NCBI GenBank assembly: GCA_016932615.1 | Contig: JAFGCN010000022.1 | Location: 1-19,024, forward strand | Direction of reading: 5' to 3' | Length of the DNA: 19,024 nt | Source: Candidatus Aenigmatarchaeota archaeon | GTDB taxonomy: Archaea > Aenigmatarchaeota > Aenigmatarchaeia > QMZS01 | Notes under the pieces: model-generated | The model's input: only the letters and a program-made list of their open reading frames with translations | Database searches by the model: none | What the model was told of the DNA's origin: nothing | Shown here: piece by piece, positions 4,147 to 10,115 of the stretch | How the letters are laid out: each line of letters opens with the position of its first letter | Position numbering within the stretch: the stretch's first letter is position 1 | Position numbers and translations under genes: made by a program

Positions 4147-4310
4147 GGACCCGTAGCTCAGGTTGGATAGAGCGTTTGCCTCCTATGAAGCTTTTCTTTG
4201 CAAAAGAAAAGCTTCAGGACCAAAAGAAAGCAGATTCCGCTTCGCGAATAAGCTTTTGGAGGGTTTTTGGAGCAAGCAAAAGGTCGGCGGTTCAAATCCG
4301 CTCGGGTCCG
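4147..4310 (+). tRNA. tRNA-Arg (anticodon CCT), intron-containing
   Basis: All arms can be paired by eye. The acceptor stem GGACCCG (4147-4153) pairs perfectly with CGGGTCC (4303-4309), with discriminator G4310. The D stem is GCTC/GAGC (4156-4159 with 4170-4173) with the invariant GG in the loop. The anticodon stem is TTTGC (4175-4179) with GCAAA (4276-4280). The T stem is 4286-4290 with 4298-4302 and loop TTCAAAT. The anticodon loop, once the intron is removed, reads C-T-CCT-A-A, giving anticodon CCT, which decodes AGG. An 89-nt intron interrupts the gene between positions 37 and 38. The 3' CCA is not encoded. The GNAT gene starts 29 bp downstream. Confidence 0.93.
4186..4274 (+). other. tRNA intron with canonical bulge-helix-bulge and a 13-bp hairpin
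   Basis: The splice-site structure is canonical. A 4-bp central helix, CTCC (4180-4183) with GGAG (4269-4272), is flanked by three-base bulges TAT (4184-4186) and CAA (4273-4275). Cleavage at the usual bulge position gives exon ends at 4185 and 4275, the standard 37/38 site. Inside the intron is a perfect 13-bp hairpin (4187-4199 with 4203-4215, loop GCA). A second stem, CCAAAAG/CTTTTGG (4220-4226 with 4253-4259), encloses a smaller stem around CGC-TTC-GCG. The sequence TTTTGGAG occurs twice near the 3' splice site. Confidence 0.85.
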
Positions 4311-8627: not shown

Positions 8628-9809
8628 TTATCTGAAAACCTCTATGCCTAAGCTGGCGGATGACTCGGTCTGCACTTCTCCGGGCTTTCTCTGTTCCATT
8701 GGGCCAAGGATGTATGGAGACTTAACACCTGTGACTATGGTGATTACCTGGATTTTGCCTTCCATCTCATCCAGGATCCTTGCTCCCCAAATGGTCTGCG
8801 CTTCCTGAGACATGTGCTTTGTGACCGTCTGTCCGACTTCGTTTACTTCCTCCAGCTTCAAGTCAGGGCCGCCGATGATTTGTATCAGGGCGCCTGTTGC
8901 TCCGGCATAGTCGACATTTAGCAATGGATGGCTTAGTGCCTGTTTTACTGCTTCCTTTGCCTTGTCTGAAGAGTTTGCGAGGCCGATTCCAATAGTGGAA
9001 ACGCCTCCAGACCTCATGATGGTCCTTACATCTGCGTAGTCCAGGTTAACAAGAGACGGCTGGGATATTGTTTCGGTAACTCCCTTTACCATCTGCGATA
9101 TTACCTGGTCGCACAGCTTGAAGGATTCCCTCAAAGGCCTGTTTCCGGCAAACTCCAAAAGCCGCTGGTTCTCTATGACGATTACGGTGTCCGATGCCTG
9201 CCTGAGATTGTAGAGCGCGTCCTCTGCCTTCCCCATCCTTGCGCCTTCTATCTGGAAAGGAAGTGTCGCTGTCGCGATGACGACTGCTCCCTGCTCTTTG
9301 GCAATTTTTGCTACAACTGGCGCGGAGCCGCTTCCTGTACCGCCGCCAAGGCCAGTAACTATGAAGACGAGGTTTGCCCCTTTGAGCAGTTCCCTCACTT
9401 CATTTTTGCTTTCCTCGGCTGCTTTTGCGCCAACGTTCGGCTCTCCTCCAGCGCCAAGCCCTTTTGTAAGGTCTTTCCCGATAAGGATTTTCTTGTGCGC
9501 CTTTGTCATGACGAGGTGAGCGGCATCTGTGTTCAATGCCACGGTTTGAGCCCCTAGGATTCCCAGTTCGGTCAAACTGCTGATGACATTTGAGCCCATG
9601 CCGCCACAGCCAACGACATATATCTTCGGTGTGTAGCTTTCGATTCCAAATTCGCTCTTCATCTCTGCTGCCAGGTCCTTGATGTTGACGCTTTCCTTAT
9701 TGTAGATTTTCTTTTCGTCGCTCGTTATTGCCCCGGCTCTCTCTTCGCTTTTCTTCTGTGCCTTATTGTCCACCGCAAACGCGGATTCGAATAGATCTTG
9801 TATGGTCAT
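8628..9809 (-). CDS. ftsZ: Cell-division GTPase FtsZ
   Basis: 393 residues. After a polar ~60-residue N-terminal extension comes the GTPase core: VVGCGGMGSN (65-74), NTDAAHL, the tubulin/FtsZ signature GGGTGSG (155-161), ARMGKAEDAL, and the T7-loop region NLDYADVRTIM that completes the GTPase site of the next subunit. The C-terminal domain includes ALIQIIGGPDLKLEE and VTGVKSPYILG. The short tail ends LGIEVFR, with no obvious bacterial-type FtsA/ZipA peptide. FtsZ polymerises into the division ring. Whether it is the FtsZ1 or FtsZ2 paralogue is not certain. The ATG has no Shine-Dalgarno; a TATTATATAC box (minus strand, 9830-9839) is centred about 25 bases upstream, fitting a leaderless mRNA. 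A large structured intergenic region lies upstream. Confidence 0.96.
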   Translation of the reverse strand: MTIQDLFESAFAVDNKAQKKSEERAGAITSDEKKIYNKESVNIKDLAAEMKSEFGIESYTPKIYVVGCGGMGSNVISSLTELGILGAQTVALNTDAAHLVMTKAHKKILIGKDLTKGLGAGGEPNVGAKAAEESKNEVRELLKGANLVFIVTGLGGGTGSGSAPVVAKIAKEQGAVVIATATLPFQIEGARMGKAEDALYNLRQASDTVIVIENQRLLEFAGNRPLRESFKLCDQVISQMVKGVTETISQPSLVNLDYADVRTIMRSGGVSTIGIGLANSSDKAKEAVKQALSHPLLNVDYAGATGALIQIIGGPDLKLEEVNEVGQTVTKHMSQEAQTIWGARILDEMEGKIQVITIVTGVKSPYILGPMEQRKPGEVQTESSASLGIEVFR

Positions 9810-9829: not shown

Positions 9830-9839
9830 TATATAATAG
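9830..9839 (-). promoter_or_regulatory. Proximal TATA box of ftsZ
   Basis: Minus strand CTATTATATA, centred 25 bases upstream of the ftsZ ATG, the distance expected when transcription starts at the start codon. Additional TATA-like words further upstream (CTATATAG 9848-9855, AATATATAG 9873-9881) could be alternative promoters that would give short leaders. Confidence 0.5.
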
Positions 9840-9911
9840 CCACTCAACTATATAGATTCCTCTACCGAAAAGAATATATAGTTTTATGACACTATATACT
9901 TATTGAACTTA

Positions 9912-9929
9912 CGAAATTCCCCAATTTCG
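9912..9929. repeat. Hairpin 1 with CCCC loop
   Basis: CGAAATT, CCCC, AATTTCG: a perfect 7-bp inverted repeat. It lies about 100-120 bases upstream of ftsZ and 11 bases from a second hairpin with the same loop. Confidence 0.7.
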
Positions 9930-9940
9930 ACACTAAAATC

Positions 9941-9966
9941 AAAAAGCAGTTCCCCAACTGCTTTTT
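9941..9966. repeat. Hairpin 2 with CCCC loop (terminator-like on both strands)
   Basis: AAAAAGCAGTT, CCCC, AACTGCTTTTT: a perfect 11-bp inverted repeat ending in five T on either strand. It could terminate transcription from either side, but no gene ends nearby. It shares the core TTCCCCAA with hairpin 1. Confidence 0.7.
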
Positions 9967-10115
9967 AACACCCTAAACTAAACTTGTATTTTGTACTATA
10001 AATTTATTTGTGGAATCTGACAAATACTTAGAAAGGCATACTTTTCATAATATACTTACCGAGACAACTATTCCCCGCATAAACCCTAGAGAAAACAAAT
10101 AAAGGCAAATAGATT

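Follow-up and report, generated by a model that had tools for sequence, protein, structure and literature searches.

Twin hairpins with identical loops lie upstream of ftsZ in an archaeon of Candidatus Aenigmatarchaeota, and relatives carry arrays of hairpins and repeated short words upstream of the same gene. We tentatively favor, at slightly less than even confidence, the interpretation that in Aenigmatarchaeota the array controls ftsZ in cis and would do so as an RNA platform encoded on the opposite strand to ftsZ. The array would most likely serve as a landing site for a putative, fast-changing regulator of ftsZ. The analyzed DNA (the window, 19,024 nucleotides) corresponds to contig C22 in an archaeal MAG of 1.26 Mb; nearly all relatives of its FtsZ that carry a name belong to Candidatus Aenigmatarchaeota. 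The gene linked to the array is an FtsZ1-type ftsZ at positions 8628..9809 on the minus strand (Pfam PF00091, Tubulin, E = 3.6e-42; PF12327, FtsZ_C, E = 7.1e-31). It was compared with a set from the GTDB class, later enlarged, that comprises 155 distinct ftsZ leaders; all genomes compared are MAGs, and start codons were set by rule.

The two hairpins are located ~100 to 160 nt upstream of ftsZ. Hairpin 1, the first copy in the direction of ftsZ (9941..9966, minus strand), has an 11-bp perfect stem, AAAAAGCAGTT-GGGG-AACTGCTTTTT, and is separated by a gap of 11 nt from hairpin 2 (9912..9929, minus strand), which has a 7-bp perfect stem, CGAAATT-GGGG-AATTTCG. The plus strand reads CGAAATT-CCCC-AATTTCG from 9912 to 9929 and AAAAAGCAGTT-CCCC-AACTGCTTTTT from 9941 to 9966. 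Both hairpins share the core TTCCCCAA, which is TTGGGGAA on the ftsZ strand. The sequence and the shuffles described below confirm the initial annotation of two perfect inverted repeats with stems of 7 and 11 bp, 11 bases apart and with the same loop. The 306-bp intergenic region has no other hairpins with 4-nt loops and stems of at least 6 bp. When folded as RNA, hairpin 1 has an energy of -11.8 kcal/mol on the ftsZ strand and -10.4 kcal/mol on the opposite strand, and hairpin 2 has energies of -4.5 and -3.1 kcal/mol, respectively. The sequence ATTCCCC, which reads GGGGAAT on the ftsZ strand, occurs a third time at window positions 10070 to 10076, near the divergent gene; there it is not part of a hairpin and is possibly another copy of the word.

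The twin same-loop hairpins are real and beyond chance. Among 5000 dinucleotide-preserving shuffles, one hairpin of at least 7 bp appeared in 209, an 11-bp stem was reached in 2, two hairpins of at least 7 bp appeared in 5, and two with the same loop appeared in none. Neither a second same-loop pair nor a GGGG or CCCC tetraloop hairpin of at least 7 bp was found in 400 kb of the host genome. The core TTCCCCAA occurs at 81 places genome-wide versus 53 for a reversed control, a count that is uninformative by itself. A covariance-model search of the host genome returned hairpin 1 as the top match and hairpin 2 as the second, both of which were in the training set. Rfam reported only tRNA, both in the window at the gathering threshold and in ten related loci at a permissive E-value, and there was no match in the phage collection that was compared. 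A probable tRNA in the window (4147-4310, plus strand; Rfam 48.4 bits; apparent anticodon CCU) was missed by ARAGORN and has a 91-nt insert in its anticodon region that holds a perfect 14-bp hairpin (4186-4216).

The hairpins are conserved in relatives, with different stems presenting a fixed loop. Arrays of 2 to 7 copies upstream of ftsZ have unrelated stems that close the loop CTGGACA (twin copies in L018, L025, L040, L042, L050, L053, and L126), TTGGGCA (L015, L021, L026, L033, L047, and L051 to L056), or TTGGGGA (L009, L045, and L119). Within the same family, at 67 to 69% FtsZ identity, a GCAGTT..AACTGC hairpin homologous to hairpin 1 is recognizable (family relatives L011, L015, and L017), with loops of GGGG, TTGGGCAA, or TGGCAG, and the first hairpin is lost in four family members (L012 to L014 and L016). 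The loop 4-mers GGGC, GGAC, and TGGA lead among hairpins upstream of ftsZ but do not rank among the top loop words elsewhere. The same words emerged when all hexamers were counted in 95 ftsZ leaders, hairpins not being required: the four top enriched hexamers were TTGGGC (44 occurrences versus 5.3 expected), TGGGCA, TGGACA, and TTGGAC. By simple criteria, a TGGRS-loop hairpin is present in 55 of the 155 ftsZ leaders, and a hairpin or array is present in 80. An array was not seen by the same criteria in the other 75, including those of the same-family loci L012 to L014 and L016. The element is thus widespread but not universal, because the remaining leaders show none.

Stem complementarity was also evaluated in copies that were selected for their loop alone. 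In the earlier alignments A4 and A5, pairing was in part a selection criterion, and they serve only as support, whereas the class-wide pattern CTGGACA-N6..36-CTGGACA makes no use of the stems. This search yielded nine array loci that had not been used to train the covariance models, and its remaining matches were mostly single chance pairs. Eight of the nine are upstream of an FtsZ gene; the ninth, in genome G024, is at a contig end, and the ftsZ contig of G024 begins 32 nt upstream of the gene. The exact seven-base loop is closed on stems of at least 4 bp by 18 of the 19 distinct copies in these loci, versus none of ~150 CTGGACA copies elsewhere in the fetched DNA. All CTGGACA copies in that DNA with stems of at least 4 bp belong to ftsZ leaders. 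The stems covary: in the loop-selected copies 87.5% of the cells are paired, versus 45% when shuffled and 27 to 43% when slid by 1 to 3 columns, there are two-sided changes at all eight stem pairs, and the covariation score is 0.99 versus 0.20 for shuffled copies. These results bear out the earlier proposal that the motif is functional, with a constant loop, stems that covary, and a specific link to ftsZ. The examination of relatives' ftsZ upstream regions for loops and compensatory stem changes, which the initial annotation had suggested, found both conserved. The two outcomes that it considered contrary, a lack of conservation in relatives and a scatter of CCCC-loop hairpins with no link to ftsZ, were both looked for, and neither was found.

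Many leaders have 3 to 7 copies of a word on the ftsZ strand (140 sense versus 21 antisense relative to ftsZ), irregularly spaced and only in part within hairpins. Stems of at least 6 bp carry 30 of the 140 sense words, versus 1.1 expected from shuffled flanks. For copies of TGGAC, TGGGC, and TGGGG, 51 of 96 are on stems of at least 5 bp versus ~2.5 expected; for other array words hairpin display is weak or absent. Words within a leader are homogeneous, with the same word in 91 of 126 within-leader pairs versus a mean of 46.6 and a maximum of 71 in 5000 permutations. Each genome uses mainly one word, and the spelling is swapped between lineages, others of which have GGGACT, GGAACT, CGGGCT, GGGCAC, GGGTTT, or CTCGT at the same place. 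The lineages with GGGACT, GGAACT, or CTCGT have their words outside hairpins, which indicates that some versions of the array can do without the hairpin. Reverse-complement words that could provide the loops with a pairing partner in the same leader are rare. A genome of the same family also contains interspersed hairpin repeats, GGAACTTTTAGAAAAAGTTCC, with poly-A spacers (G002:C22:27772-27847 and G002:C53:28729-28808).

The array is linked to ftsZ. Hairpins of ftsZ leaders were the best covariance-model matches in most genomes, a ranking that is partly circular because these hairpins built the models. When 13 matches away from ftsZ were inspected, most were inside open reading frames; L190 is intergenic, in a cassette repeated in its genome, and three others (L186, L187, and L194) are ambiguous. 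The cassette, AAACTTT..GGACAAAGTTTTGCCTAAGGCAAAACGTGCATAGGAAACTGAAGTTTCC, is present at two intergenic sites of genome G014 (L040 and L190), one of them upstream of ftsZ. At 34 loci, the genes closest upstream form 27 different clusters, indicating that the array travels with ftsZ. Triple TKGGGC arrays were found only at ftsZ in 12 genomes, and by tblastn the 3-kb flanks of a few further TTGGGC triples, found class-wide, contained no FtsZ gene. The array is absent from the leader of the host genome's ftsZ2. In f2 genomes with two FtsZ1-like genes it was present at one copy and not found at the other. The array also marks off one ftsZ paralogue from the other. Several f2 genomes have two such genes (L214, L215, L221, and L225, in G098, G030, G051, and G041, respectively), and an FtsZ1-like copy in G041 has an in-frame TAG. 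Hairpins with four-base loops do arise randomly in AT-rich DNA, as the single hairpins in 209 of 5000 shuffles illustrate. However, the shuffles, the genome sample, the specificity for ftsZ, and the conservation together effectively exclude chance repeats, a terminator, or a mobile hairpin scattered independently of ftsZ.

Promoter-like sequences, all of them consensus matches only, are present on both sides of the array. A distal TATA-like sequence, AATTTATAGTA (P1; 9994..10004, minus strand), faces the array in the direction of ftsZ, and across the class archaeal-type BRE+TATA matches peak 20 to 80 nt upstream of the first copy in this direction. On the ftsZ side, the BRE+TATA-like sequence CGAAAAGAATATATAG (P2a; 9866..9881, plus strand) faces the array and points away from ftsZ, with a predicted start at ~9900 to 9908; the corresponding class-wide peak on the opposite strand is 20 to 60 nt on the ftsZ side of arrays and also faces the array. 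A conserved block, TWWAAAA-N3-TTTCG-N7-AAAATATAT, separates the array from ftsZ (9866-9883 in the window); it was aligned in 70 of the 155 leaders, these 70 having been chosen for TATA plus TTTCG. The BRE determines the polarity of archaeal promoters, and TTTCG is the archaeal BRE, CGAAA, in reverse complement. Therefore, the block is read as a promoter-like sequence pointing away from ftsZ. A sense reading of the same proximal TATA is possible, and the block may possibly represent back-to-back divergent promoters or the site of a TATA-proximal regulator. The initial annotation had recognized a proximal TATA but placed it at 9830-9839, which is within an insertion specific to the host genome in the f1 alignment; the conserved proximal TATA is at ~9872-9881. 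Predicted promoters of the archaeal type would thus face each other across the array.

Mismatches within the stems provide information on which strand might fold. Internal stem mismatches on the ftsZ strand comprised 8 G-U and 21 A-C (two-sided p = 0.024 versus 1:1; one-sided p ~ 2e-9 versus a 4:1 G-U excess), and the loop-selected set had 0 G-U and 5 A-C, but these counts are modest, they come from related, nonindependent sequences, and a mutational bias could mimic the pattern. An A-C mismatch on one strand is a G-U pair on the other, and thus a simple sense ftsZ leader RNA is disfavored. The pattern fits the opposite strand, DNA, or folding on both strands better than it fits a sense leader. 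The idea that G-U pairs prove a sense RNA was rejected: a first count of 6 versus 4 was undecided, and the larger counts went in the opposite direction. The structured ftsZ leader RNA that had been suggested initially is therefore weakened by the mismatches, as it is by the promoter-like block between the array and ftsZ, and it is retained below as one of the alternatives.

In the favored RNA platform, copies of one short recognition word would be presented in the loops of hairpins with free stem sequence, or single-stranded between hairpins, and would be read by a putative trans-acting factor that prefers a different word from one lineage to another. The recurrence of the same word in loops and linkers, the free stems, mostly one spelling per genome, and the swaps between lineages all point to a sequence-specific trans-acting reader. 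We infer that the array functions as nucleic-acid hairpins, most likely in RNA directed away from ftsZ from the ftsZ-adjacent BRE+TATA promoter. In RNA from a promoter with this orientation, the loops would read UGUCCAG, UGCCCAA, or UUCCCCAA. The output of ftsZ could then be set by the reader binding the array RNA, or by transcription starting at this promoter rather than at the neighboring ftsZ promoter. The transcription, the strand, the reader, and the effect on ftsZ are all proposed from sequence, and a shallow partner search found no protein or RNA that might read the array words.

It is somewhat unlikely that the array is instead a DNA operator, with a regulator reading the words as double-stranded DNA beside the ftsZ promoter, much as bacterial MraZ does with its direct repeats, and the arms forming cruciforms or being incidental. 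The arms differ at every copy yet are complementary, for which a double-strand reader has no need, the spacing of copies is irregular, and MraZ is absent from the host genome and its family. Nevertheless, an operator would be consistent with a G-rich word repeated on one strand beside the promoter of a division gene, with a word and reader able to drift together, with the lineages that have words but no hairpins, and with the rarity of both A-C and G-U in stems, which would be expected if both strands mattered. A 5' leader RNA in the sense orientation, in which the distal promoter would produce a long ftsZ mRNA with 5' hairpins and a CsrA-like protein or ligand on the GGR loops would control translation, is quite unlikely. 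The canonical sense BRE+TATA peak that precedes the first copy in many leaders, the orientation of the words, and the similarity of the YUGG loop to GGA-in-loop sites and the YUNR U-turn motif are in its favor, but the excess of A-C over G-U on the ftsZ strand (21:8, and 5:0 in the loop-selected set), the intervening promoter-like block, and the absence of CsrA are not.

Facing promoters might also yield overlapping sense and antisense RNAs with complementary loops that kiss, as in hok/Sok or CopA/CopT. Such a cis-antisense pair would make use of the promoter-like sequences that face each other across the array, its CUGG or UUGG loop fits YUNR (PMC6562991), and stems restricted to Watson-Crick pairs would suit a requirement for folding on both strands. 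However, it leaves unexplained why one word is shared within a leader and why some lineages lack hairpins, and it is considered very unlikely. An intrinsic terminator, one of the suggestions of the initial annotation, was rejected: the only T-run is inside the window's own 11-bp stem, and relatives keep the loop and the stem pairing with no conserved T-run. The suggested G-tetrads failed in the same comparison, with relatives' loops being CTGGACA, TTGGGCA, and others; a G-quadruplex needs four G-tracts, the window has two GGGG tracts, and the loop cores in relatives are GGAC or GGGC.

It is possible, although at distinctly less than even confidence, that the favored RNA platform represents a previously undescribed cis-regulatory class for an essential cell-division gene, a divergent RNA hairpin-loop array that is respelled between families, with a putative archaeal reader co-evolving with the word of the lineage. 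The loop of the Guanidine-II riboswitch is ACGR, unlike those of the array (GGGG, TTGGGCA, or CTGGACA), which also has 2 to 7 copies, lineage-specific word swaps, and no Rfam match. The likeness is in the tandem small stem loops, of which the riboswitch (mini-ykkC) has two of similar sequence (PMC5486947). The bacterial CsrA/RsmA sites and CsrB/RsmZ RNAs are similar to the array in that a single RNA has copies of a GG word both in its hairpin loops and in the single-stranded stretches that join them (PMC7652899). The array differs in having words without GGA (GGGC, GGGG, and CTCGT), in its linkage to ftsZ, and probably in its strand; in terms of GGA in the loop, GGAC is present in some lineages and GGGC, GGGG, and others elsewhere. 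In a profile search of 40 genomes, CsrA (PF02599) was absent from the host genome and 38 of 39 relatives. The strong match in a 1.9-Mb archaeal MAG (G037:C76:2645-2785; E = 4.9e-21) is probably on a bacterial contig in the bin.

In bacteria, the dcw/ftsZ cluster is preceded by MraZ boxes, which are direct repeats of one short word (PMC8475190). The array likewise has direct repeats of a short word before a cell-division gene and is tied to that locus, but its spacing is irregular and complementary arms surround its words. MraZ (PF02381) was absent from the host genome and all f1 genomes, with weak partial matches in nine others. CsrA and MraZ were rejected as readers of the array because their genes are absent from the host genome, which places the array outside the CsrB/RsmZ and MraZ-box systems.

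Literature searches returned almost nothing on the control of ftsZ levels in archaea apart from CdrS in haloarchaea, and nothing on ftsZ control in DPANN archaea. The array offers a testable regulatory element before ftsZ in at least half of the class (80 of 155 leaders). Because the word changes by lineage, the specificity of its reader must change along with it, which provides a handle for finding the reader. Regulation of an ftsZ gene in archaea is already known from CdrS, a ribbon-helix-helix DNA-binding protein that targets ftsZ2 in haloarchaea (PMC7439475, PMC8406309); no hairpin array is named in the passages searched.
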